This document shows positions 10,271-37,969 of a DNA stretch of 38,680 nucleotides, one piece after another. The stretch comes from a virus: positions 1 to 38,680 of the IMG/VR virus record IMGVR_UViG_3300040810_000230; one strand, written 5' to 3'. Under the pieces are notes generated by a model. That model did not search any database, was not told where the DNA came from, and worked only from the letters and a program-made list of their open reading frames with translations. The position numbers and the translations under genes are program-made. The stretch's first letter is position 1, and every line of letters begins with the position of its first letter.

Positions 10271-10279
10271 GATACAATA

Positions 10280-23960: not shown

Positions 23961-25202
23961 AATTTTTCTTAATTTGCTCCCAAGAGTTCCTGGACTGGAA
24001 TAAACACTATTAGCAAATACACATCTTTGATTATTTGGAATATCACTAAATTTTTCGTATTGTAGATTTTTGTGATAAGAGTGAATTTTTGTCAACTGAT
24101 TAGACTCTGCTAATGCTAAATGAAAGTTATCAACTAATTCTTTCCAAGCAATTTCTTCTAAGTTGTTATAGAAGTGATTAAAGTTGTAATCCAGAGTTGG
24201 TAGAATTTCTTCGTACATTTCCTTTTTTTCTTTTTCCGACAAATTACATATCTTGTTTAACTGTCCTACAACTTTTAGTATTCTAATATTAGGGTCATAT
24301 TCCTCATCGTAACTTTCATCGATGACATTGTCGAATGTTTTAAATCCGTAACTTTTTAAATATTTTAATGCACCAGGAGTACTTAATACTAAAAATGGCT
24401 GCCTTGCAACAATAGGTTTGAATATTTTTTCAGTTAAGTGAACCGTCTTTTCATAAAAACATGTTTCACTTACTACATGCCAAAATGCACTCGTCCATAC
24501 AGAATATTCTGGTTCTGCACTAGAGTCATCTTCACTATATAATGATGTTTGTACCCTGTGACTAGTCTTTACTTGGCTACAAAAACTAATTATATCTTGT
24601 CTAGTTTTAGAATTTAAATGCATGTTGTCTAATTCTTCTGACCATTCATCTATATTATAAGATACTATTCCATCACCGAGTAGTCCCTGTTTGTATAATT
24701 GAGATAGAAATATCAGTCGATATATCCTAGGTCCTTTGTAAAGATTATTTAGATTTATATAACTTGCTCCTTGCCATATATTATTAACTTTAGGAGCGTA
24801 CTCAATGGATCTAAACCAATCTAAACTTGCAAAAGCATGATAAAAATAATACCATTTTGATAGTTTTAATTTTTTACACAAAGCGTCAACTTTTGGACTG
24901 TGTAATTCACTTGTAGCAAATATTCCACCGTCTATCCCAATGTAATCGTTATTAAATTCTTTTGTAAAAATATTGTACATGTTAGCGACCGTATTATGAT
25001 CGTACACTGGTTCTTGATCATAAAAGAATACATTTTGCAAATTAAACAAAACCTGATTAGTATTAAAGATATCAGTATTCATTGTACTGATATCTTTTAG
25101 GTTGTTACATTTTCCAAATTCGTACAAAAATGAGCCAGAAAGACTATTTGGGCGTAGGAAATTAGCATTTATAATGTTGTAAATGTTGTCTACATTAAAC
25201 AT
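23952..25202 (-). CDS. Glycosyltransferase-like protein (GT10-type C-terminal motif)
   Basis: This 416-residue soluble protein has the C-terminal block His-Leu-Thr-Glu-Lys-Ile-Phe-Lys-Pro, Gln-Pro-Phe-Leu-Val-Leu and Gly-Phe-Lys-Thr-Phe, then Asp-Glu-Ser-Tyr-Asp. This resembles the nucleotide-sugar domain of fucosyltransferase/exostosin-type enzymes. The same block occurs in the gene at 34812, so the two are distant paralogues. The upstream half differs, as expected for the acceptor domain. It is the only long reverse-strand gene inside the window and starts back to back with the curli-like module. It could modify host lipopolysaccharide or the secreted repeat proteins (inference). Confidence 0.7.
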   Translation of the reverse strand: MFNVDNIYNIINANFLRPNSLSGSFLYEFGKCNNLKDISTMNTDIFNTNQVLFNLQNVFFYDQEPVYDHNTVANMYNIFTKEFNNDYIGIDGGIFATSELHSPKVDALCKKLKLSKWYYFYHAFASLDWFRSIEYAPKVNNIWQGASYINLNNLYKGPRIYRLIFLSQLYKQGLLGDGIVSYNIDEWSEELDNMHLNSKTRQDIISFCSQVKTSHRVQTSLYSEDDSSAEPEYSVWTSAFWHVVSETCFYEKTVHLTEKIFKPIVARQPFLVLSTPGALKYLKSYGFKTFDNVIDESYDEEYDPNIRILKVVGQLNKICNLSEKEKKEMYEEILPTLDYNFNHFYNNLEEIAWKELVDNFHLALAESNQLTKIHSYHKNLQYEKFSDIPNNQRCVFANSVYSSPGTLGSKLRKILK

Positions 25203-25263
25203 GTATGTTTATGTCTTTTTTAACGAGTAAATACAAATATAGTAATAATTGAGGGAAGACTGA

Positions 25264-25713
25264 GTGAAATTCTTATTAACACTGATATTTATGGTGCCAG
25301 TACTAGTACTAGCAGATAATTTAACATTCAACTACAAAAACCCTGCCTTTAGCGGCATAGGGTATAGTGCCCACGTATTAACTATCGAGCAGTTGGAATC
25401 TAACCGTCGTAAAGACAATGAAAAAGCCGCAAAAGCACTACAGGACGAAGCAGACAGGGACTTGCGTTCTACTAATACATGGAAGTTTCAAAACAACTTA
25501 GAGTCTAGGATTTACAGTCAGCTGAGTAAGCAGATAAGTGATAGTTTATTTGGTGAAGGCTCAGCAGAGGACGCAGAGGGCGAAGTAACAACGCCATTTG
25601 GAGATACAGTAGCATGGTCTCGTATTAATGATGTTATAACTGTTACTGTGTCAGACAGCAACGGAGACGTTTTATCCACATTTTCTGTACCTGTAGGAGA
25701 TTTTGCTTTCTGA
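25264..25713 (+). CDS. csgF: Curli assembly factor CsgF homologue
   Basis: The 149-residue protein has a signal peptide ending Val-Leu-Ala (17) and a mature N-terminus Asp-Asn-Leu-Thr-Phe-Asn-Tyr-Lys-Asn-Pro-Ala-Phe-Ser-Gly. This closely follows E. coli CsgF (Thr-Phe-Gln-Phe-Arg-Asn-Pro-Asn-Phe-Gly-Gly), the peptide that inserts into the CsgG pore. A helical middle with Gln-Leu-Ser-Lys-Gln-Ile and a C-terminal strand region ending Thr-Val-Ser-Asp-Ser-Asn-Gly also fit. It tethers the curli fibre to CsgG at the cell surface. GTG start with GAGGGA ribosome binding site. Its stop overlaps the csgG start (TGATG), the same gene order as in E. coli csgFG. Confidence 0.9.
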   Translation: MKFLLTLIFMVPVLVLADNLTFNYKNPAFSGIGYSAHVLTIEQLESNRRKDNEKAAKALQDEADRDLRSTNTWKFQNNLESRIYSQLSKQISDSLFGEGSAEDAEGEVTTPFGDTVAWSRINDVITVTVSDSNGDVLSTFSVPVGDFAF

Positions 25714-26594
25714 TGAGAAATATATTAATACTCCTATTATGCTTGGTTATATCAGGTTGTGCTAGTTTGGCAGGACAAACTAAATTTGATGCACCTGAAA
25801 TAACACAAAGCCTAGAAGAGGAATTTAAGTCTATCCCGCCTCCCAAAGACGGTCATATATATGTTGCAGTATATGGATTTCAAGATAAAACTGGGCAACG
25901 TAAGCCCAGCGAAAGAATTGCACATATATCTACAGCAGTAACACAGGGAGCGGCTGACTGGGTAATCAAGAGCCTTAAAGAAGTTGGCGGCGGCACATGG
26001 TTTAAGGTAATTGAGCGTGTGGGGTTAGACAACCTTGCAAAAGAAAGACAGATTATTAGACAACAGCGTGAAACCGTAGATGACAAGAGAGCGTTGAAAC
26101 CACTTAAGTATGCAGGTATAATTTTAGAAGGAGCAATTATAGGATATGACAGTAATATAAAAACAGGAGGTAGTGGAGCTAGATACTTAGGTATAGGCGT
26201 GCAACAGGAATACAGGGAAGATATAATGACAATATCTATGCGTATTGTTTCTACACAAACAGGCGAGGTATTGGTAGCAGTTAGTGGAACTAAGACTATT
26301 TTAAGTTATGGACAAAGTTTTGGTGTGTTTAAGTTTATAGAAATGGGAACCGAAGCAGTAGAACTTGACGCAGGATCTTACACTAATGAACCAACAACAG
26401 TCGCACTTCAAAGAGCAATTGATGCGTGTATAATAGAAATAATCAAGCAGGGCAAAACGCATGGGTACTGGGATTACGAAAATCCAGTAACTGTGGGTTC
26501 TTCGGAACGAATAAATGAAGTTGCAAACGAGCTCAATGATGAGGAAATGTTACAAAAAGAGTTCGAAAAACAACTAAAAATGATAGAAAAGTAA
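25713..26594 (+). CDS. csgG: Curli secretion pore CsgG homologue (outer-membrane lipoprotein)
   Basis: The 293-residue protein is a full-length CsgG. The lipoprotein signal has Ile-Ser-Gly-Cys16. Blocks matching E. coli CsgG include Val-Ala-Val-Tyr-Gly-Phe-Gln-Asp-Lys-Thr-Gly-Gln, Ser-Thr-Ala-Val, Ile-Glu-Arg-x-Gly-Leu-x-Asn-Leu, Glu-Gly-(Ala)-Ile-Ile-Gly-Tyr-(Asp/Glu)-Ser-Asn, Gly-Gly-x-Gly-Ala-Arg-Tyr-x-Gly-Ile-Gly and Lys-Thr-Ile-Leu-Ser-Tyr. It should form the nonameric outer-membrane channel exporting amyloid subunits. Residues aligned with the E. coli constriction (Tyr51, Asn55, Phe56) look different here: Glu67, His71, Ile72. The C-terminus is a charged helix. Neighbours are CsgF and three repeat or accessory proteins. 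CsgE is not seen. Confidence 0.93.
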   Translation: MRNILILLLCLVISGCASLAGQTKFDAPEITQSLEEEFKSIPPPKDGHIYVAVYGFQDKTGQRKPSERIAHISTAVTQGAADWVIKSLKEVGGGTWFKVIERVGLDNLAKERQIIRQQRETVDDKRALKPLKYAGIILEGAIIGYDSNIKTGGSGARYLGIGVQQEYREDIMTISMRIVSTQTGEVLVAVSGTKTILSYGQSFGVFKFIEMGTEAVELDAGSYTNEPTTVALQRAIDACIIEIIKQGKTHGYWDYENPVTVGSSERINEVANELNDEEMLQKEFEKQLKMIEK

Positions 26595-26630
26595 CTTTTT
26601 TAATATAATAGCAGTATATTATATAACGTA

Positions 26631-26670
26631 GTTATTTAAATAACATTAAGTGGTATACCATCACTATAAT
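26631..26670 (+). promoter_or_regulatory. Palindrome and putative -10 before the curlin-like gene
   Basis: A perfect 14-bp palindrome GTTATTTAAATAAC (26631-26644) is followed by an 8-bp palindrome GGTATACC and TATAAT (26665-26670). The -35 region is weak. The 113-base gap between csgG and the repeat gene is the longest in this module. It may hold an activated or repressed promoter. Confidence 0.45.
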
Positions 26671-26707
26671 CTAGGTACGACGGCTAAGGCCAAGGGAGCA
26701 TTAGAAA

Positions 26708-27349
26708 ATGCGTATTTTAAGGACTATAAGCACGTTATTTGTTGCTGTGGTATGTAGTTCTAGTTTTGCTAACGATGTTTATATCGAACAAGCAGGTGAC
26801 AGTACTGATATTGATATCATTCAAAAGAATGGTACTAACACTTTGAATGACTCAACTGATGCCGCCACTATTAGCGGTGACAGTATAACGTTTAGTTTAA
26901 CACAGGACGGTAACTTGAACAATGCTGACGTGGAAATAGAAAACTCAGCAACATCTAGTAATGTTGATATCGACGTTGCAGGTGGAAGTAACGAAACTAA
27001 TGTTGGTATCGACGGTGCATCAAGCACAACAGTAGACATTGACGTTACAGGTGATTCCAACTGGGTATCAGTATGTGGAGCCAATGACGGTGCCAGTGTG
27101 GCTGCGGCGGAATGTTCTACAGGTATTACCGACGGTTCCACTAGTAACACAGCAAACATTACTGGTGATAGCAACATTGTTAATATTGAAGCAAGCGGTG
27201 CTAGTCAGACCAACTCGGTTACAATAGGTGCAGATGCAACGGACATTAGTGATAACAACACAGTTAATATTAGTAATGACGTAACAGGTGCAGATGTTAT
27301 TATTGACATGGACGGACAGGATAATACCGTAGATGTTACAGTTCAGTAG
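26708..27349 (+). CDS. Secreted curlin-like repeat protein (CsgA-like)
   Basis: The 213-residue protein has a signal peptide ending Ser-Phe-Ala (21). The mature N-terminus is Asn-Asp-Val-Tyr-Ile-Glu-Gln-Ala-Gly-Asp-Ser-Thr-Asp-Ile-Asp-Ile-Ile-Gln. The rest is irregular Asn/Asp/Thr/Val-rich repeat units of about 20 residues (Gly-Asp-Ser-Asn-x-Val-x-Ile, Gly-Ala-Ser-x-Thr-x-x-Val-x-Ile) with almost no Lys or Arg. This matches the design of curlin beta-arch repeats (Gln/Asn ladders), though more Asp-rich and less regular than CsgA. It is the likely fibre subunit exported through the CsgG pore encoded just upstream. AGGGAG ribosome binding site; 17-base overlap with the FecR gene. Confidence 0.8.
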   Translation: MRILRTISTLFVAVVCSSSFANDVYIEQAGDSTDIDIIQKNGTNTLNDSTDAATISGDSITFSLTQDGNLNNADVEIENSATSSNVDIDVAGGSNETNVGIDGASSTTVDIDVTGDSNWVSVCGANDGASVAAAECSTGITDGSTSNTANITGDSNIVNIEASGASQTNSVTIGADATDISDNNTVNISNDVTGADVIIDMDGQDNTVDVTVQ

Positions 27350-28424
27350 GACATTATTTGTCATATTATTTTTTGTCTCTTCAACTGTTTTAGCAAAGGG
27401 GATAGGAAATGTCACGGAACAGACTGGTCCTGCTGAAATCAGCAGAAAAAAAGAAACACTGCCATCTGAAAAAGGCTCTGAAGTCTTTATGCAAGATGCT
27501 ATCCAAACTACGAAAAGCAAGTTAGGGATAACGTTTGAGGACGACACTAAAGTAAAGATGACAGAACAAAGCAAACTCGTTATAGACGAGTTTCTTTACG
27601 ATCCAGGAAATAAAAAGCCCGGTAAACTGGGAATGAAGGTAGCAATAGGAACAGTTAGGTATGCGTCTGGTAAGATTGCCAAAGACAATGCAGAAAATGT
27701 AAACATACAGACACCAACTGCTACTATTGCTGTTCGAGGAACAGACTTTACAATGACTGTAGACGAGATAGGTCGCAGTCTTGTTATACTACTACCAAGT
27801 TGCCCTACTAGTAATGAGATAGATTGTTACGTAGGCGAGATCGAAGTTATGACTGATATGGGTGCTGTGTTAATGAATCAAGCATTCCAAGCCACATTAG
27901 TAACTAGTAGAAACAGTATGCCTACTGAACCAAAACTTATAGATATAAGTGAGGCACTGATAGATAATTTTTTAATTGTTAGTCCACCAGAAGAAGTTAG
28001 ACTTGCACAAGAAGAACTTGAGCGTAGTAACAACCCACTAGATAAAGACTTATTGGAATTTGACGAACTAGACGTAAATGAATTAGACCAAGAAGATGAG
28101 CTCGCTAACAACTACGAACTAGACATTAACTTTTTGGACTTTGAATTTTTAGATAATATGTTGGACCTAACTACAATACAGTTAGACAGAGACGAACTAG
28201 AAACTAACGAAGTGCTACCAACAATACAGCAGTACAGTTGGATAATTTGGTATGCAAACGAAGAAGAAATTTTTATGAGAAGCGAACGTCCTCCACACGT
28301 GGCAGAGATAAGTTTACCTAGAGAAACAGAAGGTAATGTTTATATCGTGCAGGACGATATTCCAGCAGACATATCAGTACAAGGTGGATCAAGTGTTACG
28401 ATTGATATTATTCAGTCTCAGTAG
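27333..28424 (+). CDS. Exported FecR-domain protein with curlin-like C-terminal tail
   Basis: The 363-residue protein has a signal peptide ending Val-Leu-Ala (21). A FecR-type domain follows at about 25-170: Gly-Ser-Glu-Val-Phe-Met-Gln-Asp, Thr-Phe-Glu-Asp-Asp-Thr-Lys-Val-Lys-Met, Val-Asn-Ile-Gln-Thr-Pro-Thr-Ala-Thr-Ile-Ala-Val-Arg-Gly-Thr-Asp. A very acidic Leu/Asp/Glu-rich middle (about 220-290) follows, and the last 30 residues carry Val-Tyr-Ile-Val-Gln and Ile-Asp-Ile-Ile-Gln, the same motif that opens the curlin-like protein upstream. It could be a periplasmic chaperone, nucleator or fibre anchor. A classical FecR anti-sigma role is unlikely because no sigma factor or receptor is linked. 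Overlaps both neighbours. Confidence 0.78.
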   Translation: MLQFSRTLFVILFFVSSTVLAKGIGNVTEQTGPAEISRKKETLPSEKGSEVFMQDAIQTTKSKLGITFEDDTKVKMTEQSKLVIDEFLYDPGNKKPGKLGMKVAIGTVRYASGKIAKDNAENVNIQTPTATIAVRGTDFTMTVDEIGRSLVILLPSCPTSNEIDCYVGEIEVMTDMGAVLMNQAFQATLVTSRNSMPTEPKLIDISEALIDNFLIVSPPEEVRLAQEELERSNNPLDKDLLEFDELDVNELDQEDELANNYELDINFLDFEFLDNMLDLTTIQLDRDELETNEVLPTIQQYSWIIWYANEEEIFMRSERPPHVAEISLPRETEGNVYIVQDDIPADISVQGGSSVTIDIIQSQ

Positions 28425-29568
28425 TCTACTGTTTTATTTGACTCCAGCAATTGCTGACCTCTACTACGATACCTATCAGGGAACAGGTTCCTATCCAAGT
28501 TTTCCTGGGAATGGCGGAAGTTTAACATACCCTACAAAATTAAGTTCAGGCACGGTGAGCAGTTTGAATTACAATTGGGGTGGTGGTAATGTATTAGACT
28601 CGGGCAGAAATCAACAAGTAATAGTCAACTTCTATGGATACATCACTATCCCAGGCACAGGTAGCCAGGACATACAATTCTATCTGTATGCTGATGATGG
28701 CGTGTATATGAAGTTGGATAACACCGTGGTAATCAACGACTGGCAAGAACAGGCTCCCGGCACGTGGAACTACGTTTCAACAGACCAAACACTCACAGGT
28801 GGACAAACTTATTATATTGATATGTGGTGGTATGAAAACGGTGGCGGCGCCGCAGTTAAGTTATATTGGGATCAATCAGGATCAGTTGCATTGGTGCCTA
28901 GCTCGGCATATTCATTGACCGATCCTAGTGCATCTGGTGCACCTTCAGCAACACCATCATATTCTTCTGGTCCAACTTCTGCACAACAAACTAGAATAAA
29001 CAGTGCTGTATCTGCGGTTAATTCAGGTGAAAGTAATAATATCGATATAGATATAGATGGCGATGATAATGATGTAATGATAACACAAGCAGGTGAGCCC
29101 AGTTATCTGCTATTGAACATTACAGGAAATTTAAACTCCGTGGATATTGACCAAAATGCTACTACTGTAGGCACATCATATGGGCATTACACAGAAGCAG
29201 AGATATTAGGTAATAGTAATAGTATAGATTTGTTACAAACAGGCAGTGGAAACAAATCGGCATTTATTGATATTGCTGGTAACAGTAACACGGCAAATCT
29301 GATACAAAAAGACAGTGGCAACCACTATCTAATGTTAGATTTTATAGGTGATGGCAATACTGCCACAGTTACGCAGGAAGGTTCAGGTGACCATGCGGCT
29401 ACTATTGAACTTACTGAAAGTGGAGGCGCCTGGACTTTTGGTCTTACTCAAAGTGGATCAACAAATAAAACTTACAGTTTACCGCATTCAATGAGCGATG
29501 GTTCTACAGTGACTGGAACTTGTTCAACGCCAGCAGGATGCTCTTTAACTATCACACAAGGTGACTAA
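28393..29568 (+). CDS. Exported PA14-domain protein with curlin-like repeats
   Basis: The GTG at 28393 is chosen because AAGGTGG lies just upstream and it gives a clean signal peptide ending Ala-Ile-Ala (21). An ATG at 28336 would add 19 residues and spoil it. The mature 370 residues have a PA14-type domain at about 25-165 (Tyr-Ala-Asp-Asp-Gly-Val-Tyr-Met-Lys-Leu-Asp, Tyr-Tyr-Ile-Asp-Met-Trp-Trp-Tyr-Glu-Asn, Val-Lys-Leu-Tyr-Trp), a Ser/Pro/Ala linker, then curlin-like repeats (Gly-Asn-Ser-Asn-Ser-Ile-Asp-Leu-Leu-Gln-Thr-Gly and relatives) to the C-terminus. PA14 domains bind glycans. The fusion suggests an adhesive tip or coat built into the amyloid fibre. It overlaps the FecR gene by 32 bases and closes the module. 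Confidence 0.8.
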   Translation: MLRLILFSLSSLLFYLTPAIADLYYDTYQGTGSYPSFPGNGGSLTYPTKLSSGTVSSLNYNWGGGNVLDSGRNQQVIVNFYGYITIPGTGSQDIQFYLYADDGVYMKLDNTVVINDWQEQAPGTWNYVSTDQTLTGGQTYYIDMWWYENGGGAAVKLYWDQSGSVALVPSSAYSLTDPSASGAPSATPSYSSGPTSAQQTRINSAVSAVNSGESNNIDIDIDGDDNDVMITQAGEPSYLLLNITGNLNSVDIDQNATTVGTSYGHYTEAEILGNSNSIDLLQTGSGNKSAFIDIAGNSNTANLIQKDSGNHYLMLDFIGDGNTATVTQEGSGDHAATIELTESGGAWTFGLTQSGSTNKTYSLPHSMSDGSTVTGTCSTPAGCSLTITQGD

Positions 29569-29573
29569 ATATC

Positions 29574-29603
29574 TTGACTTTATAAGTTAAATTGTATTAT
29601 AAT
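29574..29603 (+). promoter_or_regulatory. Putative sigma70-type promoter before the PTPS-like gene
   Basis: TTGACT (29574-29579), 18 bases, TATAAT (29598-29603), just after the PA14 gene stop. The leader of about 80 bases to the ATG at 29691 holds no recognised riboswitch. A preQ1-type element was considered but not convincing. Confidence 0.7.
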
Positions 29604-29690
29604 AATGCATGACTAACTTAGTGGCCTCTTTCGACGCTCATCCCACTTTAAATATTCTGCGTGTCATTGTTAACATTAAGGACAACAACA

Positions 29691-30194
29691 ATGGCTAATC
29701 AACCAAGACAATACAAGTACGTAAGTACAAAAGAATATGTAGATCAGTTTCCCTGTGCATATAGGCAATGGCGGGCTGACAGTCACTGCAATCTAATACA
29801 CGGCTATGCGTTTAGTATGCGTTTCTTTTTTGGAACCGACAACTTAGACGTTAGAAACTGGGTAGCAGACTACGGTGGACTAAAAGAACTAAAACAAGTA
29901 TTACAAGATCAATTTGACCATACACTACTGGTTGCTGAAGATGATCCAGAACTAGAAATATACAAGCAACTGCAAGCAAAGAAGTTGGCTAAACTGACCA
30001 TACTGCCAAGACTTGGTTGTGAAGGACTAGCAGACCAATTGTACAAATATGTAAATGGTGTGTATATCCCAGACATGTGGGGTCAAGCAGAAGCAGATAG
30101 ACTTTGGTGTTACAGGGTAGAAGTACGTGAAACACAAAGCAACATGGCTTGGCGTGAAGGTCATAGAGAATGGAACGAGGATCTGTTTGAATAA
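29691..30194 (+). CDS. 6-pyruvoyl-tetrahydropterin synthase/QueD-family protein
   Basis: The ATG at 29691 with AAGGA at 29678-29682 gives 167 residues. An upstream in-frame start at 29661 lacks a ribosome binding site. PTPS/QueD blocks are present: Cys33-x3-His37-Gly, Val-Ala-Asp-Tyr-Gly-Gly-Leu-Lys, Gln-Phe-Asp-His-Thr-Leu-Leu-Val, Cys-Glu-Gly-Leu-Ala-Asp-Gln-Leu and Tyr-Arg-Val-Glu-Val-Arg-Glu-Thr. Family members make 6-carboxy-tetrahydropterin for queuosine or 7-deazaguanine DNA modification, or biopterin. By eye the usual His-Gly-His zinc pair is His37-Gly-Tyr39, and the first zinc His is Tyr24, so metal binding may differ. No queC, queE or dpdA is seen in this window. Confidence 0.82.
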   Translation: MANQPRQYKYVSTKEYVDQFPCAYRQWRADSHCNLIHGYAFSMRFFFGTDNLDVRNWVADYGGLKELKQVLQDQFDHTLLVAEDDPELEIYKQLQAKKLAKLTILPRLGCEGLADQLYKYVNGVYIPDMWGQAEADRLWCYRVEVRETQSNMAWREGHREWNEDLFE

Positions 30195-30315
30195 CGATAC
30201 TTGGAAATGTGATGGTAAGACAGTGGGACATGATGGACACCCTGCTGTCTATCTACCTGCAAATCAAAAGTGTCCCTACTGTGGCAAGGAACAAAAAGAT
30301 GCAGTCACCTTGTGA
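30187..30315 (+). CDS. zf-CHCC zinc-finger mini-protein, 42 aa
   Basis: A TTG start at 30187 with GAGG at 30177-30180 gives a 42-residue protein made almost entirely of a CHCC zinc finger: Trp-Lys-Cys-Asp-Gly, Gly-His-Pro-Ala-Val-Tyr-Leu, Gln-Lys-Cys-Pro-Tyr-Cys-Gly. These are the four ligands and the hallmark Gly-His-Pro and Cys-Pro-Tyr-Cys of the family that includes the NDUFS6-type domain and small proteobacterial proteins. The role in phage is unknown. It overlaps the PTPS gene by 8 bases and the next mini-gene by 17 bases. Confidence 0.75.
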   Translation: MNNDTWKCDGKTVGHDGHPAVYLPANQKCPYCGKEQKDAVTL

Positions 30316-30448
30316 AAAAATCTGTGTTATGGAAAATGGCTACTGCTTAGGGTGTAATCGCACACAGGAAGAAATAGCCAACTGGATCAACTACACGGAT
30401 GAAGAACGTGAACGCATAATGGAAGAACTGTTCGACAGAGAAGTATGA
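30299..30448 (+). CDS. DUF1289 mini-protein, 49 aa
   Basis: The ATG at 30299 is preceded by AAGGA at 30286-30290. The 49-residue product matches DUF1289: Ser-Pro-Cys-Glu-Lys-Ile-Cys, Gly-Tyr-Cys-Leu-Gly-Cys-Asn-Arg-Thr, Glu-Ile-Ala-Asn-Trp, then Glu-Arg-Glu-Arg-Ile-Met. The four cysteines probably bind zinc or an Fe-S cluster. DUF1289 proteins are common small proteins of proteobacteria with unknown function. Upstream in-frame sequence is the wrong frame of the zinc-finger gene, so the short form is preferred. Confidence 0.8.
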   Translation: MQSPCEKICVMENGYCLGCNRTQEEIANWINYTDEERERIMEELFDREV

Positions 30449-30624
30449 ACTTGTTACAAACTTTTCGTGCTGTACTAACAGCCTTTATCGGTATTAAAAA
30501 AGGCAAACAATCACAACAAGACTTTGGTACACTTAAAATACAAAACGTTGTAATTGTAGGAATTGTTTGTGCAGTATTATTTGTAACTGTATTAAAATCA
30601 ATAGTAAGTTTTATAGTTAACTAA
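30445..30624 (+). CDS. DUF2970-like small membrane protein, 59 aa
   Basis: This short frame has an ATGA overlap with the DUF1289 gene and a TAATG overlap with the cupin gene, so it is embedded in the coupled series. The product begins Met-Asn-Leu-Leu-Gln-Thr-Phe-Arg-Ala-Val-Leu-Thr-Ala-Phe-Ile-Gly-Ile-Lys-Lys-Gly. It then has one C-terminal transmembrane helix (about 33-57, Val-Val-Ile-Val-Gly-Ile-Val). This is the layout of DUF2970, a small inner-membrane family of mostly gamma- and betaproteobacteria. Function is unknown. Adjacent DUF1289 and DUF2970 genes suggest acquisition from a proteobacterial host. Confidence 0.72.
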   Translation: MNLLQTFRAVLTAFIGIKKGKQSQQDFGTLKIQNVVIVGIVCAVLFVTVLKSIVSFIVN

Positions 30625-31025
30625 TGACATACAAAATTTTAACAGAAAATTCAGAAGACAAACTTAACGTCTACGACATAGGTGGTGCTACAGTTAAAGA
30701 CAATGAGACATATCGTGTAAAAGATAACACAACTCTTAATAATTTAGTAGTAAGTTCTACTGAGCTTAAGTCTATGCAAAGTACTCGAGGTCATAAGCAC
30801 CAAGGGCAGGAAGAAGTGTATCATTTCATTAGTGGATATGGAAAGATGGAACTGGACGACAGACAGTTTCATGTAAAAGGAGGTGACATCGTATTGATTC
30901 CGGATGGTTCCTTCCATCGAGTACATAACACTAGTGAGCATGGTGCCTTATATTTTATCTGTGTGTTAACTGTAATAAAGGAAAATGGATTTACTAACTA
31001 TAGTAATGATGTTGAAATGGGATAA
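30624..31025 (+). CDS. Cupin-domain protein
   Basis: The 133-residue protein contains a single cupin barrel. Motif 1 is Gly-His-Lys-His-x-Gly-Gln-Glu-Glu-Val-Tyr-His-Phe-Ile-Ser-Gly-x-Gly. Motif 2 is Gly-Gly-Asp-Ile-Val-Leu-Ile-Pro-Asp-Gly-Ser-Phe-His-Arg-Val-His-Asn. The His-x-His, Glu and second-motif His needed for metal binding are all present. Such cupins are sugar-phosphate isomerases, dioxygenases or binding proteins. Being coupled to radical SAM, SDR and glycosyltransferase-like genes, a role in sugar or cofactor conversion is plausible (inference). TAATG coupling on both ends. Confidence 0.85.
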   Translation: MTYKILTENSEDKLNVYDIGGATVKDNETYRVKDNTTLNNLVVSSTELKSMQSTRGHKHQGQEEVYHFISGYGKMELDDRQFHVKGGDIVLIPDGSFHRVHNTSEHGALYFICVLTVIKENGFTNYSNDVEMG

Positions 31026-32524
31026 TGTTTGCTGTAATACTTACCGTTCCCCGGGTAGCGGCGCTGAGACCAAGTGCGGCTCCGGCTATAATAAAAAGTA
31101 TAATAAAAAGTAAAGGACTAGAAAGTCAGGTACTGGATATTAATCTAGATTTTCACGACCAATTTGGAAGTCGTTTTTCGGAACAATCTTATAACACAAT
31201 CGATGACTATTTCTTTAATCATCTGAATCAACTTGATCAACATGACCAAACTGTATACACAGAATGGATGCAAGACTGGGTTGATCGGATTATACAGATT
31301 AATCCGCAATATCTTTTTATAAGTGTGTTTACTTGGCAAGCACAACGATTTACTAGAGACTTCTTAACATTGTGGAAAACACAAAGTAATATACCTGCGA
31401 TTATTGGTGGGCAGGGCATGACTAAAGAAGAAAACGGAAGTTATTCTAGCAAGCCTGAGTTTGCGCACGAAATGAAGGCGCAAGGGCTAATTGCGCACTG
31501 GATCAGAGGCGAGGCTGAAACCACTATCCCTGCGATAATTGACGGAAAGTTTGATACACCGGGCATTGATACAGACACCTTGGCAGATAGGAGTGATGTT
31601 AACTCGCATGGTTTCTTAGACTTCTCAGACTTTGATATAAAACGATATCACAGTGGGTACAAACAAGGTGTGTTACCTGTAGAAACCAGCAGAGGTTGTG
31701 TGCGAAATTGTGTATTTTGTGATATCCCAACCTGGCACGGAAAGTTTAGGTACAAAAACGGTACTAAACTCAGCAACGAACTAATACATTACTACGAAAA
31801 GTATCAAGTGAAAGACTTTTTCTTTCACGACGCATTATGCAACGGTAGTGTAAAAGACTTTAAGTTGTTTAATCATAACTTAATGGACTACTACACACAA
31901 AACAATTTACCAGAGCGACACTTTAAATACAGCAGTCATTATATTGTTCGTAGTGAACGAATAATGCCTGAAGAAGATTTTAAGTTTATGGGATCAGCAG
32001 GTGCCGAATGTATGGTAATTGGGGTCGAGTCCGGGAGTGATCGTGTTAAGGCAGACATGCGAAAAGGCTTTAACAACGCTGACTTAGATTATAATATGAA
32101 AATGTTTAGCAAGTACGGGATCACTGTGTACTTGTTACTGATTGTAGGATTTCCTACAGAAACTAGAGACGACTTTAACGAAACACTAACGATGTTAAAA
32201 CGTTACCAGCCTTATGTTGCTGACGGGACTGTGATTGGTGTTAACCTTGGCACAACATTAACCATTGAAGAAGGATCACCGATATACACAGATTATTCAA
32301 AACTAAACATAGTAGGCACAAATGGTAATAGACCGCAAGGTCCGGATTGGCATTGCGAAACAAACCCAACTTTGACCTATAAAGAGCGTATTATGCGCAG
32401 AATCGAAGCACAAGAATATGCTACTAGCTTAGGTTATACATTCTGGAAAGGCGATGATCAATTGAAGTTACTAATGGATAACTATACCACAAGATTACAC
32501 AAACTAGCAGGAGTAATACACTAG
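31025..32524 (+). CDS. B12-binding-type radical SAM enzyme
   Basis: The 499-residue protein has an N-terminal cobalamin-binding-like Rossmann region at about 1-190 (Pro-Arg-Val-Ala-Ala-Leu-Arg-Pro, Tyr-Leu-Phe-Ile-Ser-Val-Phe-Thr, Ile-Ile-Gly-Gly-Gln-Gly). The radical SAM core follows, with Cys225-x3-Cys229-x2-Cys232 for the 4Fe-4S cluster in Ser-Arg-Gly-Cys-Val-Arg-Asn-Cys-Val-Phe-Cys-Asp. SAM-binding strands include Ile-Gly-Val-Glu-Ser-Gly-Ser and Leu-Leu-Ile-Val-Gly-Phe-Pro-Thr-Glu-Thr. The family contains methylases, ring-contracting and sulfur-inserting enzymes. The substrate cannot be told, and the usual cobalamin His is not obvious, so B12 use is uncertain. TAATG/TAGTG coupling with both neighbours. 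Confidence 0.88.
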   Translation: MFAVILTVPRVAALRPSAAPAIIKSIIKSKGLESQVLDINLDFHDQFGSRFSEQSYNTIDDYFFNHLNQLDQHDQTVYTEWMQDWVDRIIQINPQYLFISVFTWQAQRFTRDFLTLWKTQSNIPAIIGGQGMTKEENGSYSSKPEFAHEMKAQGLIAHWIRGEAETTIPAIIDGKFDTPGIDTDTLADRSDVNSHGFLDFSDFDIKRYHSGYKQGVLPVETSRGCVRNCVFCDIPTWHGKFRYKNGTKLSNELIHYYEKYQVKDFFFHDALCNGSVKDFKLFNHNLMDYYTQNNLPERHFKYSSHYIVRSERIMPEEDFKFMGSAGAECMVIGVESGSDRVKADMRKGFNNADLDYNMKMFSKYGITVYLLLIVGFPTETRDDFNETLTMLKRYQPYVADGTVIGVNLGTTLTIEEGSPIYTDYSKLNIVGTNGNRPQGPDWHCETNPTLTYKERIMRRIEAQEYATSLGYTFWKGDDQLKLLMDNYTTRLHKLAGVIH

Positions 32525-33060
32525 TGCAAGTTAGTTTAGATATTGGATTCAGCGTAGGTAGGAAACTAGGCGACCCTGATGTTAAAATATTAATTGACGA
32601 CTATGTTGTGTTGTACGAAGGATCTGCTGTTGACCAGTTCTCTAGAGTCATTGACTTAAATGCTGGTGAACACGAACTTAAGATCGTGCATCACGGAAAG
32701 ACAGATCAAGATCATGTATTAGACGATCAGGGTAATATTCTAGTAGATAAATTTATTAATATTGATACTATGGTCATTGATGGAATTAAACTGACCGATA
32801 GGGAATTACACACAGGAGAATTCTGGCCAGTATACAGTTTAAGTTACGTTGAGGATATGCAGGAGTTACCAGAAAGTATTTGCCCTAACTTGTATCTGGG
32901 TCACAATGGAACTTGGAGATATAAATTTTTTGCTCCTTTTACTGAGTGGATAATTCGTGAGCGCAAACAAGGACCGCAACTTGACGATACTATTTTTAAA
33001 AGTAGTCAGCAAATACTGGAAGATGCAAAGAATTTCTTCAAAGACATACGGGAATTATGA
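32524..33060 (+). CDS. Beta-sandwich-type phage protein, 178 aa
   Basis: A GTG start overlaps the radical SAM stop (TAGTG). The N-terminal 95 residues alternate strands typical of a small beta-sandwich (Val-Ser-Leu-Asp-Ile-Gly-Phe, Val-Lys-Ile-Leu-Ile-Asp-Asp-Tyr-Val-Val-Leu, Gly-Glu-His-Glu-Leu-Lys-Ile-Val-His-His-Gly). A conserved-looking Leu-Gly-His-Asn-Gly-Thr-Trp block and a helical tail follow. Its opening strands resemble carbohydrate-binding-type domains, and a similar architecture (Gly-His-Gly, Trp) is seen in the reverse-strand gene at the right end. Glycan binding is a guess that fits the cluster. Confidence 0.6.
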   Translation: MQVSLDIGFSVGRKLGDPDVKILIDDYVVLYEGSAVDQFSRVIDLNAGEHELKIVHHGKTDQDHVLDDQGNILVDKFINIDTMVIDGIKLTDRELHTGEFWPVYSLSYVEDMQELPESICPNLYLGHNGTWRYKFFAPFTEWIIRERKQGPQLDDTIFKSSQQILEDAKNFFKDIREL

Positions 33061-33083
33061 AAATTACTTTTGAAATTGAATGA
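33057..33083 (+). other. Eight-codon frame, possible remnant of a duplicated beta-sandwich gene
   Basis: ATGA coupling at the end of the beta-sandwich gene opens a frame Met-Lys-Ile-Thr-Phe-Glu-Ile-Glu and then a stop. Its pattern mirrors the start of the preceding protein (Met-Gln-Val-Ser-Leu-Asp-Ile-Gly). It may be the stub of a lost tandem copy or only a translational relay to the next gene. Confidence 0.3.
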
Positions 33084-33089
33084 ACACTA

Positions 33090-34199
33090 ATGTTAACTTA
33101 TAATTCTGTCGACGAGTATCAAATTGAAATAACCACATACTGCAATGCGGCTTGTCCGCAATGTCCACGCAATCTCTGTGGTTACGGAAAGAATCCACAC
33201 ATGCCGCTAGTGCATTTAGATGCGGATGTTATTGATAATGCATTTACTCCTGATCTGTGTAATAGACTAAGACAAGTGTTTTTTTGTGGCAGTTACGGTG
33301 ATCCCATTATGCATCCTAAGTTCTTGGACATACTAAGAAAGTTCAGACAGAAGAATCCAACACTATGGTTGTACTTTCACACCAACGGAGGTGTACACAA
33401 CAAGGACTACTGGCAAGAAGTAGCAGATATAATGGCAGGCTACGGACAGATAGACTTTGGTATTGATGGTCTAAGTGATACACTAGATTTGTACCGTAGA
33501 AATGTAGACTATGATAAGGTTATACGCAATGCCAGGGCTTTTATTGATCGTGGTGGTCGTGCGCAGTGGAACTATATAGTGTTCAAGCATAACGAACATC
33601 AAGTTGAACAAGCAAAGCAACTAGCACAAGAGTACGGCTTTTTTAACATCTTGATACGCAAAACTGGGCGGTTCTTTGATCATAAAAATCTGGTTGAATT
33701 CAACAGTTGGCCTGTGTATAATAGCAAGGATGATGTAGCATACCAGTTGGAGTTGCCTACACAAGAGCAATACAGAAACAACAGTATGCTAGGCTTGACT
33801 GGATTAAAGACAGAGTATCCGGATATTAAGGATTACTTTGCTAAAACAGAAATTAGATGTGATGCAGAAATAGGAAACAAGGTGGCAGTAAATGCAGAAG
33901 GCGTTGTGTTGCCTTGTAACTTTTTTAATCACAATTTGTATGATTTAAGATTTCACGATACAGATACACTGCCAAGGGCTAATGCACTCAGTGGACAGCC
34001 TAATCAAGTTAAAGAATTCTTAGATCAATACGGATTAAACAATTTGTCTATTAAAAACAACAGTTTAGCAGACATATTCAACAACAAGTTTTGGCAAGAC
34101 TTGCACAGCAGTTTCACAGGCAATAGACTGTTTGAGTGTGCAATGACTTGCGGTAAACGTTTAACAAAGGTCTGGGACCAAGGAGGCAATCGTAGATGA
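33090..34199 (+). CDS. Radical SAM/SPASM enzyme
   Basis: The 369-residue protein has the radical SAM cluster motif Cys18-x3-Cys22-x2-Cys25 in Thr-Tyr-Cys-Asn-Ala-Ala-Cys-Pro-Gln-Cys-Pro, the Gly-Ser-Tyr-Gly-Asp-Pro segment and Phe-Gly-Ile-Asp-Gly-Leu. The C-terminal SPASM-type region has Val-Ala-Val-Asn-Ala-Glu-Gly-Val-Val-Leu-Pro-Cys-Asn-Phe-Phe and further cysteines (Glu-Cys-Ala-Met-Thr-Cys-Gly-Lys) for an auxiliary cluster. SPASM enzymes modify peptides or sugars. No obvious precursor peptide is seen nearby, which slightly favours a sugar or amino-acid substrate. It overlaps the SDR gene by 4 bases. Confidence 0.88.
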   Translation: MLTYNSVDEYQIEITTYCNAACPQCPRNLCGYGKNPHMPLVHLDADVIDNAFTPDLCNRLRQVFFCGSYGDPIMHPKFLDILRKFRQKNPTLWLYFHTNGGVHNKDYWQEVADIMAGYGQIDFGIDGLSDTLDLYRRNVDYDKVIRNARAFIDRGGRAQWNYIVFKHNEHQVEQAKQLAQEYGFFNILIRKTGRFFDHKNLVEFNSWPVYNSKDDVAYQLELPTQEQYRNNSMLGLTGLKTEYPDIKDYFAKTEIRCDAEIGNKVAVNAEGVVLPCNFFNHNLYDLRFHDTDTLPRANALSGQPNQVKEFLDQYGLNNLSIKNNSLADIFNNKFWQDLHSSFTGNRLFECAMTCGKRLTKVWDQGGNRR

Positions 34200-34780
34200 A
34201 AGTATTAGTAACAGGCGGTAACAGAGGGTTGGGAAAGCACTTAGTAGAAGTGTTTGATACTGCTGACGGAATCAGTAGAGCTGACGGGTTTGATATTACA
34301 AAAAACATAGACGACATCGCGGCTCGCAGTATAGATTATGATGTAGTTGTTAACAACGCATTTGATGGTCCTCCACAAGAAGATTGGGCTAACTTTGGCC
34401 AGACTAACTTGTATATAAAAATTTACGACACATGGAAAAAACATAACAAATCAGGTTATATTTTTAATATCGGTAGTGTAGGTGAGCAGGGTATTGTTGC
34501 TCCCGAGCCACGTTGGGAAACTTATAGAGTCAGCAAGGCAGCACTAGCACATGCTAGTAAACAAGGTACGCAAGCATTTAAGCAAAATGCAGTATCTTTT
34601 AAAACTACCTTGATTACCCCTGACAGGTTAGATACAGAACTAAGTCGTAGCAGACCAAATTGGACTGGTAACGGAATAAACCTAGTAGACATTTCAAATT
34701 TTATCAAGTATGCTACACAAACACAAGATAATACTTGCATAGAAGAAATAACTTTTTATTGTGCGTTAGATTATCAATAG
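34196..34780 (+). CDS. Short-chain dehydrogenase/reductase
   Basis: The 194-residue protein has the SDR nucleotide motif Thr-Gly-Gly-Asn-Arg-Gly-Leu-Gly (6-13), Val-Asn-Asn-Ala (52-55), catalytic Ser94 in Asn-Ile-Gly-Ser, and Tyr110-x3-Lys114. It is short for an SDR (usually about 250), with a reduced region between the cofactor and catalytic motifs and a shortened C-terminus, so the substrate pocket may be minimal. It should oxidise or reduce a hydroxyl/keto group with NAD(P)H, probably on a sugar intermediate given the glycosyltransferase-like gene 31 bases downstream. Confidence 0.88.
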   Translation: MKVLVTGGNRGLGKHLVEVFDTADGISRADGFDITKNIDDIAARSIDYDVVVNNAFDGPPQEDWANFGQTNLYIKIYDTWKKHNKSGYIFNIGSVGEQGIVAPEPRWETYRVSKAALAHASKQGTQAFKQNAVSFKTTLITPDRLDTELSRSRPNWTGNGINLVDISNFIKYATQTQDNTCIEEITFYCALDYQ

Positions 34781-34811
34781 AGTTACTACAGGATAAACAC
34801 CACGTAACAGA

Positions 34812-35936
34812 ATGGTAAAAAGATTCGCACATAAAATATTTACACTTGTGCCACCTGCTAGTGCAATAGATGTTTATGGTGACTGGTTAGGTTTAGATCA
34901 TGTAAACTGGCAATTTACAGACAACTATCAGGAAGCACTAGCACAGCCTTACAAGATTGCTATGATGCCTGCGCTGTTTAACGTCAATGGCAGTTACACC
35001 TATAGAGCAAAGTTTGCTAAGATGGACTTTAGTAAATTTGATCTTGTTGTACTAAGTGACATAGAATGCCATAGTCAAGATTATATATTAGAAAATTGTA
35101 TTAAACCTGCTGGTATTACGAACTATCTAGTGGCGGTTGGCGGAATGTACAGCGAACTTACTGATCCTGACTTTATATACAGACCTTGGTGGATGTTTCA
35201 TCATCGTCAACTGAATCACATACACATTACACAATCTATCAAGAAGCGTGAGTTTTTGTTTGATGCATTACTGGGCGCACGTAAATTGCATCGTAGTTAT
35301 GTAATGGCACGTTTTCAGCAACGTCCTGATTTGTTGTCAAAGTCCATTGTAAATTACAGAGATACGTTTATTAACCACTGGGGCAACGACCCTTCCTACT
35401 TATATGATCATGTAAACAAAGTACTAGATGGCAAGCAATTACAGTGGCCTTATGTAAGTGAGAACTTTACAGAACAACAAACACAAGATTTAGAACCACA
35501 TCAAATCAGTGAAGTTACACCTTGGAATATATACGAAAAGACACACTACAGTATATGCTGTGAAAGTTTTAGTAATAATCCAGATGACACAAATCCAGGA
35601 CCTTTCTTTCTAACTGAGAAGACTGCTAAAATGTTTATGGCGCAACGTATGTTTATAATGTTTGCACCACAACATACATTACGGTTTATAAAAAGCCTAG
35701 GCTTTGACACATTCGATTCTATTATAGACGAAAGTTACGATGACATAGCAGACCCTAGAGAAAGATTTGACAGAGCTTTTGATCAAGTGGAATATCTTGC
35801 TGAACAAGATCCCACAGAAGTCTACGAGAAAGTATGGCCTATCACACAATATAACTTGTGGATGTTTATAGACCTTATTAAAAAAACTAAGGAAGCAATG
35901 TTGGATAAGTTACTGTATAAAATAAATACTTTATAA
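34812..35936 (+). CDS. Glycosyltransferase-like protein (GT10-type C-terminal motif)
   Basis: The 374-residue soluble protein ends in the block Phe-Leu-Thr-Glu-Lys-Thr-Ala-Lys-Met, Arg-Met-Phe-Ile-Met-Phe and Ser-Leu-Gly-Phe-Asp-Thr-Phe, then Asp-Glu-Ser-Tyr-Asp. The reverse-strand gene at 23952 shares it, and it is reminiscent of fucosyltransferase-type nucleotide-sugar domains. The N-terminal half is unrelated by eye. It closes the cupin/radical SAM/SDR series and overlaps the cyclase start (TAATG). The likely role is transferring a modified sugar onto host surface glycan or a phage structure (inference). Confidence 0.72.
   Translation: MVKRFAHKIFTLVPPASAIDVYGDWLGLDHVNWQFTDNYQEALAQPYKIAMMPALFNVNGSYTYRAKFAKMDFSKFDLVVLSDIECHSQDYILENCIKPAGITNYLVAVGGMYSELTDPDFIYRPWWMFHHRQLNHIHITQSIKKREFLFDALLGARKLHRSYVMARFQQRPDLLSKSIVNYRDTFINHWGNDPSYLYDHVNKVLDGKQLQWPYVSENFTEQQTQDLEPHQISEVTPWNIYEKTHYSICCESFSNNPDDTNPGPFFLTEKTAKMFMAQRMFIMFAPQHTLRFIKSLGFDTFDSIIDESYDDIADPRERFDRAFDQVEYLAEQDPTEVYEKVWPITQYNLWMFIDLIKKTKEAMLDKLLYKINTL
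35921..35928 (+). promoter_or_regulatory. Putative T4-type late promoter (AATAAATA) before the cyclase
   Basis: AATAAATA lies inside the end of the glycosyltransferase-like gene, 7 bases before the ATG at 35936. If used, the cyclase mRNA would be almost leaderless. The motif could also be coding coincidence (Lys-Ile-Asn-Thr). Confidence 0.45.
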
Positions 35937-37969
35937 TGTTCAAAAAGTTATTGTTGAGTCCCTGGACCGCTGTTATTACGTTAATAATATGCGCATATAT
36001 TAGATTAGTAAATCCTAGTTTTGTAGAAAGTGTTAGGCTAACATATTTCGACACTTTAATTACAAGCCAAGAGCCCGTACAAAACAACATACACACAATT
36101 AATATAGATGATCCTGCTCTAAACGAGATAGGTGCGTGGCCCGTGCCACGTAGTTACTATGCTGACTTAATTGCTGACTTGTATGGTAACAGGAATGCAG
36201 GTTTGGTGGTACTAAACGTTCTCATGCCTGAAAGCGCAGAAGGCGATAACGAACTTGCTGAAATAATGGAGACGTTTCCTGTTATATTAACAAGTGTGCC
36301 TAGTCAATGGAGTAAGAATACACCCAAGAAGCCAGGTGCTGTAATCCTTAATCCAGACTACATGAACACAATTATAAACTATCCTGGTATAATTGCAAAC
36401 ACACCTGAATTAGAACAACGTGCATATGGTGTTGGTATTGCCAGCACACTGCCTGAGATAGATGGTGTTACTAGACGTATACCGTTAATAAGTGCTGTGG
36501 GAGAAAACTTATATCCTAGCGTAGCATTAGAGATACTGAGATCAGCGGCAGGTGATACAACATTCCAAGTAAAACTGTTTGAACTGGGTGTAGAGAAAAT
36601 GCGTATACCTGCATTTGATACAATACCCACAGACCAACTTGGACGCATATGGATAGACTGGAGTCAAAAAAGTTTTAGCCACAGTTTAACTAGCATGCCA
36701 GATGACTTTGGTGGCGGCATCGTTATTATTGGTCCTACAGCGGCAGGTACTAATCAGCCCATAGCAACAGCACTGGGAGGTAGTTGGCCTCATGAATTAC
36801 AAAGTGCAGTTGTTGGCACAATGTTTAATGGTGTCAACATTGAACGTTATGACTGGGCAGATGGTGCAGAACTATTAGCACTATTAGTTTTGGGTGTTTT
36901 GGCAATAGCAATATCTTATTGGACATATGGCTTTGTGCCAGTTATAGCAGTCGTAGCAGGCACGTATTATGCGGCACAACATTATTATGCAGAACAGAGA
37001 TTATTATTTGATATTACAGCAATAATATTTGCTTTAGTGTTGACCTATATACACGCATATACAGTAAAGTTTCTTAAAGAGTTTTATCAGAAGCAACAAA
37101 TTAAGCGACAGTTTGGAACTTACATCAGTAAGGAACTTGTTGCTGAATTACAGAAACATCCTGAAAAAATGCAGTTAGGTGGTGACACACGTAACATGAC
37201 ATTTCTGTTTTGTGACATTAGAGGATTTACACCTATTAGTGAACAATACAAAACAGATCCGCAAGGTCTAACACAACTTATTAACAAGTTCCTAACACCT
37301 ATGACTAATATAATTATGGAGCACAAAGGAACCATCGATAAGTATATGGGAGATTGTATTATGGCGTTTTGGAATGCGCCGTTGGAGGTAAATGGGCATG
37401 AACAAAAAGCCGTATTGGCAGCGCAAGACATGGTTAATGGAGTTAGGAGACTCAATGAAGAACTGTCCAAAGATAATTTACTACCTATTAACATTGGTAT
37501 CGGTATTAATACTGGTGCCTGTGTCGTGGGTAATATGGGCTCTGATCAAAGGTTTGACTACAGTGTACTCGGCGACGCTGTCAATCTTGGAAGCCGTCTC
37601 GAAGGTCAATCCAAGTCGTACGGAGTCATCACAGTTATCGGAGAAGAAACTGCACGATCTGTAACAGAAGTGCAAATGGTAGAACTGGACTTAATTGCTG
37701 TAAAAGGCAAAGATGTTCCTGTTCGAATTTTTACACCCGTAACATCAGCAACAGACGAAGAACTTAAAAAACATAAAGAATATCTCACGGCATACAGACA
37801 AAGGGAGTGGGCCCAGGCTAAGAGAGTTGCTGGTGGTAATAAGTTAGCGTTCGGAGGGGAACTTGAAAAGTACTATAAACTTATGAGTGAACGCATAACG
37901 GATCTTGAGAAGTCAGATATCAACGACTTGGAAACTTGGGACGGGGTGTATAGGGCTACAACAAAATAA
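35936..37969 (+). CDS. CHASE2-sensor class III adenylate cyclase
   Basis: The 677-residue membrane enzyme has an N-terminal transmembrane helix (about 8-25). A periplasmic CHASE2 domain follows (about 28-300; Phe-Asp-Thr-Leu, Ile-Asp-Asp-Pro-Ala-Leu-Asn-Glu-Ile-Gly-Ala-Trp-Pro-Val-Pro-Arg). Three transmembrane helices lie at about 308-375 and a class III cyclase domain at about 418-610. Key residues are intact: metal-binding Asp427 (Cys-Asp-Ile-Arg-Gly-Phe) and Asp473, adenine-selecting Lys469 and Asp541, transition-state Asn550 and Arg554. It should make cAMP inside the host in response to an external signal. CHASE2-cyclases are common in bacteria. I do not know of a characterised phage one. 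Start coupled (TAATG). Confidence 0.93.
   Translation: MFKKLLLSPWTAVITLIICAYIRLVNPSFVESVRLTYFDTLITSQEPVQNNIHTINIDDPALNEIGAWPVPRSYYADLIADLYGNRNAGLVVLNVLMPESAEGDNELAEIMETFPVILTSVPSQWSKNTPKKPGAVILNPDYMNTIINYPGIIANTPELEQRAYGVGIASTLPEIDGVTRRIPLISAVGENLYPSVALEILRSAAGDTTFQVKLFELGVEKMRIPAFDTIPTDQLGRIWIDWSQKSFSHSLTSMPDDFGGGIVIIGPTAAGTNQPIATALGGSWPHELQSAVVGTMFNGVNIERYDWADGAELLALLVLGVLAIAISYWTYGFVPVIAVVAGTYYAAQHYYAEQRLLFDITAIIFALVLTYIHAYTVKFLKEFYQKQQIKRQFGTYISKELVAELQKHPEKMQLGGDTRNMTFLFCDIRGFTPISEQYKTDPQGLTQLINKFLTPMTNIIMEHKGTIDKYMGDCIMAFWNAPLEVNGHEQKAVLAAQDMVNGVRRLNEELSKDNLLPINIGIGINTGACVVGNMGSDQRFDYSVLGDAVNLGSRLEGQSKSYGVITVIGEETARSVTEVQMVELDLIAVKGKDVPVRIFTPVTSATDEELKKHKEYLTAYRQREWAQAKRVAGGNKLAFGGELEKYYKLMSERITDLEKSDINDLETWDGVYRATTK

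Follow-up and report, generated by a model that had tools for sequence, protein, structure and literature searches.

Curli genes are carried by phages of the ocean, and the reason for this has been called unclear (PMC7029224). The virus record IMGVR_UViG_3300040810_000230 raises this question in a specific form, namely what a phage might do with a curlin protein that bears a globular head. The whole record of 38,680 nucleotides was analysed in this study and is referred to as the window. It contains csgF, csgG, a curlin gene (curlin-1), a FecR-domain gene and a gene encoding a PA14-curlin protein (gene 5), followed by a CHASE2-cyclase gene located 6.4 kb downstream of gene 5 (Table 1).

The combined presence of csgG and csgF identifies the locus as a type VIII secretion (curli) module, and the Pfam matches of the neighboring genes place the leader-bearing PA14-curlin protein inside it. 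The gene order is the same in Pelagibacter phage HTVC008M and Methylophilales phage Melnitz, and curlin-1 shares its position, and can be aligned, with the curlin proteins of both. The HTVC008M gene at 10638-11963, annotated as a "hypothetical protein", encodes a PA14-curlin protein at the place of gene 5; gene 5 of Melnitz is all-curlin and headless. No match to CsgE was found in the 38.7-kb record. This does not exclude a type VIII secretion system, because the record may be a fragment and the phage modules described in the accessible text of PMC9599517 likewise lack CsgE.

Phage curli modules were published in 2020 and 2022, with a second curli-repeat gene, FecR and cyclase included (PMC7029224, PMC9599517, PMC9004378). 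As described in the accessible text of these papers, the modules of pelagimyophages, HTVC023P-type pelagiphages and Melnitz follow the same kind of order (csgF, csgG, curlin, FecR, second curlin, adenylate cyclase). However, gene 5 is described there either as hypothetical or as a second fibre gene with curli repeats, and gene 5 and the cyclase of the window, unlike those of these modules, are set apart by 6.3 kb that include PTPS and radical SAM genes. This intervening stretch (29661-35933) encodes a 6-pyruvoyl tetrahydropterin synthase-like protein (PTPS), a DUF1289 protein, a cupin and two radical SAM proteins, among others; it separates two genes that are close neighbors in many relatives. 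Elsewhere in the window, PHROG matches at 5939-7522, 7979-11410 and 14794-15351 were to a tail-spike/pre-neck-appendage-like protein, ribonucleotide reductase subunits and an endolysin. Whole or partial phage-type curli modules were also seen in MAGs named Rhodobacteraceae, Flavobacteriaceae, Pirellulales and Pelagibacter (L362, L363, L364, L365 and L393), and these contigs seem to be phage DNA placed in bacterial bins. A "Salmonella phage" record of 1499 bases (OR851715.1) carries a csgG that is 39.6% identical; this record may be host DNA rather than phage.

Table 1. Features of the curli module and of gene 5 in the window (positions in nucleotides of the window)
Feature	Position	Strand	Evidence or remark
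csgF, outer-membrane pore accessory	25264..25713	+	PF10614 E 1.6e-12
csgG, outer-membrane secretion pore	25713..26594	+	PF03783 E 1.6e-54
curlin-1, probable major fibre subunit	26708..27349	+	213 aa; 21-aa leader by inspection; Curlin_rpt E 0.14, below cut-off
FecR-domain protein with curlin-type C-terminal end	27333..28424	+	PF04773 E 4.7e-9; terminal motif
Shine-Dalgarno-like AAGGTGG before GTG 28393	28381..28387	+	read from sequence
gene 5, head-curlin protein	28393 (GTG)-29568	+	391 aa, predicted exported
gene 5 leader (putative signal peptide)	28393..28455	+	by inspection
segment replaced by an unrelated head in IMGVR_UViG_3300018416_001797 (L045)	28415..28943	+	blastn, no match between flanks
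PA14 head, residues about 22-178	28456..28926	+	Pfam, AlphaFold2, VIA structure matches, phmmer
D101-D102	28693..28698	+	aligned with Asp136-Asp137 of 6m8m, the calcium-binding Asp-cis-Asp of PA14 lectins
E148-N149-G150-G151-G152	28834..28848	+	aligned with MhPA14 D181 Q182 G183 G184 A185, second calcium/sugar loop
gene 5 Ser/Pro/Thr-rich linker	28927..29037	+	AlphaFold2 pLDDT <50 at 180-199, 201-208
gene 5 curlin-repeat tail, Gln ladder	29038..29565	+	PF07012, phmmer 8c50, AlphaFold2
CHASE2-adenylate/guanylate cyclase, module partner gene	35936..37969	+	CHASE2 E 1e-30, cyclase E 4.3e-19

The longest frame around gene 5 opens at ATG 28336 and encodes 410 amino acids. By inspection, GTG 28393 appeared to be the better start, since AAGGTGG lies 5 nt upstream of it and an ordinary 21-residue leader ending in AIA follows. 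The original prediction, that the product of this gene joins a PA14 domain to a curlin-like tail, was borne out: both parts exceeded their Pfam cut-offs, and in an AlphaFold2 model based on 26 aligned relatives, a PA14-like beta-sandwich is followed by a disordered linker and then by 13 short strands. An Ala-X-Ala-type cleavage site after residue 21 can be read by eye in gene 5, curlin-1 and the FecR protein, as had been proposed. The description of all three as repeat-bearing does not hold for the FecR protein, which has a single curlin-type end and no repeat array. The suggestion that the three were shuffled from a common secretion leader is not supported, because the identity between their leaders (4, 4 and 5 of 21 residues) is no higher than expected by chance (P 0.51-0.70).

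The head was recognized by the PA14 profile PF07691 (residues 70-162, E 2.1e-9, 37.8 bits against a cut-off of 24), and its pLDDT in the AlphaFold2 model is about 60-90. In VIA structure comparisons it matched 6qe7 (RsgI-type; Z 17.9, rmsd 3.0 over 143) and the Marinomonas MpPA14 lectin 5j6y (Z 16.2, rmsd 2.7 over 153), and phmmer with the head found 6qdi (E 1.4e-15) and 6qe7 (E 1.1e-13), together with a weak match to 6m8m (E 0.039). The name PA14 derives from anthrax protective antigen, structures of which were also among the fold matches of the head; these indicate a common fold only. The closest solved sequences, 6qdi and 6qe7, are PA14 domains of clostridial RsgI-type proteins, but these are named anti-sigma factors, not fibres, and in the printed alignment one PA14 copy of 6qdi has the Asp-Asp pair and the other lacks it. 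The PA14 lectins of RTX adhesins, MpPA14 and MhPA14, are similar to the head in fold (Z 15-16) and in their calcium ligands, an Asp-Asp pair and an acidic loop, but they are 17-19% identical to it and are carried by RTX adhesins instead of curlin (PMC8092209, PMC6650083).

The residues expected to bind calcium are well conserved among the relatives of the window head: each of the 26 alignment rows has D101, D102 and G103, and 25 of them have E148 in place of Asp181. The residue numbering of 6m8m was counted by hand and agrees with PMC6650083. Judged from the sequence, the Ca1-binding residues of MhPA14 appear largely retained in the window head, and the Asp-Asp pair and acidic second loop that mark PA14 calcium lectins both seem to be present. 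This suggests that the head could bind calcium and sugar in the manner of PA14 lectins, and carbohydrate binding by gene 5 is plausible. The window head contains no cysteine; this is no general rule, since only 13 of the 34 Asp-Asp-Gly heads among the matches listed are cysteine-free after residue 25.

In the C-terminal half of gene 5, PF07012 was matched with 43.8 bits (E 2.4e-11, cut-off 20.7), and phmmer with the tail found the solved curlin-repeat protein 8c50 (E 2.1e-11). The 13 strands of the model lie between residues 216 and 389. The matches listed by a structure search with the gene 5 model cover residues 18-188 only, which is the PA14 part, and no curlin structures are among them. 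The motif strand-x-strand-x-Gln occurs 7 times in the tail, compared with a mean of 1.1 in composition shuffles, none of which (0/5000) reached 7. Seven motif matches point to a unit number nearer to 6 two-strand units plus a last strand (about 6-7) than to the "about eight" of the original prediction. Bacterial CsgA and CsgB curlins are secreted through CsgG/CsgF. Like gene 5, these PF07012 proteins consist of curlin repeats with a terminal strand ending in Gln; unlike gene 5, the repeats begin soon after the leader and there is no globular head in the bacterial curlins of eight loci (L442, L459, L471, L473, L475, L477, L478 and L479).

Gene 5 is best read as a fibre-associated display protein of a phage type VIII secretion module, a reading to which we assign a probability of roughly 55%. 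We infer the following course for its secretion, assembly and binding. The phage CsgG/CsgF pore would be built in the host outer membrane during infection, and curlin-1, the FecR-curlin protein and the head-curlin protein would be exported to the periplasm by Sec and then pass through CsgG. As the CsgG/CsgF channel is about 13-15 Å wide (PMC9004378), a folded head could not pass, and the head of gene 5 would have to cross the pore unfolded. The tail would dock on or co-assemble with the curlin-1 fibre, leaving the head outward on the surface of the infected cell, where it may bind glycans of particles, polymers or other cells in a calcium-dependent manner. Another client of the pore would be the FecR protein, which may report to the CHASE2 cyclase.

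By inspection, the window FecR protein has a leader at its start and a curlin strand at its end. Among the matches listed, strand-x-strand-x-Gln is found at the end of 198 of 208 unique phage FecR C-termini, where shuffles give 25, and bacterial FecR proteins from loci without csg or curlin genes have this terminal motif in 6 of 83 cases. The same motif occurs in 84 of 84 headed gene-5 ends, 130 of the 145 unique gene-5 ends overall and 148 of 194 curlin-1 ends, again among the matches listed. A curlin-unit profile scored at least 3 bits with 115 of 205 FecR ends among the matches listed, versus 5 of 205 shuffled ends, 2 of 79 bacterial ends and 1 of 198 internal stretches. This curlin-type terminal strand indicates that the module FecR is probably a client of the CsgG pore, the third besides curlin-1 and gene 5. 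Thus the module FecR, which PMC9599517 reads as an iron-dependent regulator, may be re-read as a secretion-pore client. In bacteria, including Pelagibacteraceae, a FecR gene and a CHASE2-cyclase gene were found within a few kb of each other in stretches without csg genes (L373-L376, L378, L381, L399, L401 and others). This arrangement fits a FecR-CHASE2 signaling pair, and we infer that the phage module joined this pair to curli.

It has also been proposed, for Melnitz (PMC9004378) and for pelagimyophages (PMC7029224), that the pore rather than the fibre matters, for example in uptake or lysis timing; the curlin clients would then be gates or plugs. The lack of a CsgE match in the window agrees with such a role, but three clients with curlin ends and the exchange of heads described below are left unexplained by it, and we consider it improbable.

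The distribution of heads was investigated in 362 sequences, comprising the window, the two annotated phages and the stretches listed by five scans of metagenomic virus contigs; some of the sequences overlap within a single contig. Four alignment scans covered the best 80 of 524, 562, 574 and 484 relatives, respectively, and the class proportions are therefore biased by the queries. A module FecR was present in 347 of the 362 listed sequences, and a curlin-tail gene followed FecR in 239. After truncated proteins and exact duplicates were dropped, 159 complete and unique gene-5 proteins from 229 loci were kept. Proteins whose first curlin unit lies after residue 150, a threshold set by us, were termed headed; this applied to 96 of the 159 among the matches listed. 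The remaining 63 have their first unit by residue 150, or none was found, and those inspected are all-curlin or short, which indicates that the head is not essential.

Single-linkage clustering merged nearly all heads, and they were therefore classed by profiles. Among the 96 unique headed proteins (matches listed), 34 heads were classed as PA14, 30 as IFT52/GATase1-like, 9 as F5/8C and 23 as other, and the counts of 34, 30 and 9 depend on our own grouping because the profiles were built from the same proteins. Pfam alone assigned 25 of the same 96 heads to PA14 and 9 to F5/8C. An IFT52-like head, modeled from L191 (a stretch of the L045 contig), matched GATase1-like folds, among them the N-terminal domain of IFT52 (Z 16.6). 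A binding role is only presumed for the IFT52-like heads and the 23 other heads, which counts against the display reading. Some gene-5 proteins are considerably larger: those of L161, L168, L173 and L202 have 716-803 aa, with heads of about 530-620 residues, and the heads of L161, L168 and L202, scanned singly, had no Pfam head domain at E 0.01 or better.

Proteins with similar tails frequently carry different heads. Among the matches listed, 225 pairs have a tail identity of at least 65%, excluding pairs whose tails differ in length by more than 40 residues; in 90 of these BLAST gave no match between the two heads at E 1e-3, and in 88 the head classes are different, as they are in 37 of the 111 pairs with a tail identity of at least 80%. 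In L045, for example, identity to the window is 98.2% over 25159-28414 and 98.7% over 28944-29722, with an IFT52-like head in between; in this case both leader and head were exchanged. L305 and L310 originate from separate metagenome records, and the identity between them is 98.8% across 4.8 kb and 97.2% across the last 1.2 kb. Their gene-5 tails are nearly identical and their heads are about 30% identical over the best 95 residues; the leader (23/23 identical) was retained despite the new head. The converse case is given by L003, whose head is 86% identical to that of the window while the tails are 47% identical. Together, these sharp swaps and the converse case indicate that the head is a cassette moving between backbones. 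On the basis of these comparisons, gene 5 appears to be modular, a conserved leader-bearing curlin protein with interchangeable heads.

The swap between the window, a virus record, and L045, a virus contig obtained from a metagenome, might be thought to reflect a chimeric metagenome assembly of two strains. This is highly improbable: the same kind of swap occurs in L305/L310, whose sequences are from different metagenome records; the 90 of 225 tail-related pairs with unrelated heads among the matches listed span many levels of divergence; and many contigs carry the alternative heads at this same position.

Phage tail fibres carry exchangeable receptor-binding tips. Gene 5 is similar to them in combining a conserved shaft with an exchangeable tip, but it is a curlin protein with a leader and not a known part of the virion. 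A head swap would retarget what the infected cell binds, as a swap of the tail-fibre tip retargets the virion. The exchange of heads suggests selection on what is bound, and the targets may be neighboring cells, particles or algae, or competing phages. "Sibling capture" of neighboring cells has been proposed (PMC7029224); in the accessible text of PMC9004378, no clumping was seen in cultures of Melnitz, the phage with the headless gene 5.

Alternatively, gene 5 may be a CsgB-like nucleator or anchor, with the head at the pore or cell surface holding the fibre and recognizing sugars of the host envelope, so that head variety follows envelope type. In bacterial csgBA, csgB adjoins csgA, and gene 5 is similarly the second curlin gene in an operon with curlin-1. 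Its tail also has fewer units than the CsgA-type bacterial proteins inspected, and the variety of heads could track hosts. However, the swaps occur at 98-99% identity of the surrounding genes, where a change of host is less likely, and we regard a nucleator as unlikely. A shield against superinfection or predation, in which the heads, instead of catching new hosts, would attach to or cover surface glycans or passing virions, seems less probable still. PA14 and F5/8C folds are known mainly as polysaccharide binders rather than virion binders, which speaks against such a shield, whereas rapid head exchange fits an arms race and superinfection defence has been proposed for phage curli (PMC9599517).

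The display reading can be extended, with somewhat less than even confidence, to a polymorphic surface display of phages. The tip domain of a curli-type fibre (PA14, F5/8C, IFT52/GATase1-like and others) would be swapped as a cassette between near-identical phages and would retarget the adhesion of infected cells to next hosts, algae or particles; FecR-curlin and the CHASE2 cyclase would serve in sensing assembly or contact. That lectin-type heads are exchanged on a conserved tail points to specific extracellular binding as the selected function. Gene 5 may therefore be a marker of what infected cells bind, and its variants may be regarded as natural examples of curli display.

The term "PA14" does not occur in the main text of PMC7029224, PMC9599517 or PMC9004378, and "lectin" and "discoidin" do not occur in the main text of two of them. 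PA14-curlin fusions were not described in the literature titles and abstract beginnings searched for curli, curlin, PA14, csgG and marine phage. In the literature on PA14, curli and phage, PA14 seemingly refers, by title, to the Pseudomonas strain, and the combination of curlin and PA14 domain led to yeast adhesins. The modular gene 5, the cassette exchange of heads and the curlin-type end of FecR thus look new.

Bacterial curli operons had been suggested as the donor of the fusion. In 385 sampled genomes of one class and 398 of one phylum, no PA14-curlin fusion was found; the bacterial proteins that matched had PA14 alone, contained PA14 copies within a long chain, or were curlins. The genome-contig scan used FecR as the query and covered the best 80 of 195 relatives, and fusions may thus exist elsewhere. 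One candidate, locus L468 of genome G424 (model positions 54-268), was rejected because its PA14 copies lie in another kind of protein. A remaining candidate in genome G317 (model positions 54-243) lies inside a 3081-aa frame.

Heads of this type also occur on a different kind of protein. In one relative, a gene between FecR and the cyclase (L106:10038-13334) encodes a 1098-aa protein with an F5/8C head and no curlin tail. Judged by eye, the C-terminal end of this protein is similar to an autotransporter barrel, and it is perhaps another display platform for such a head.
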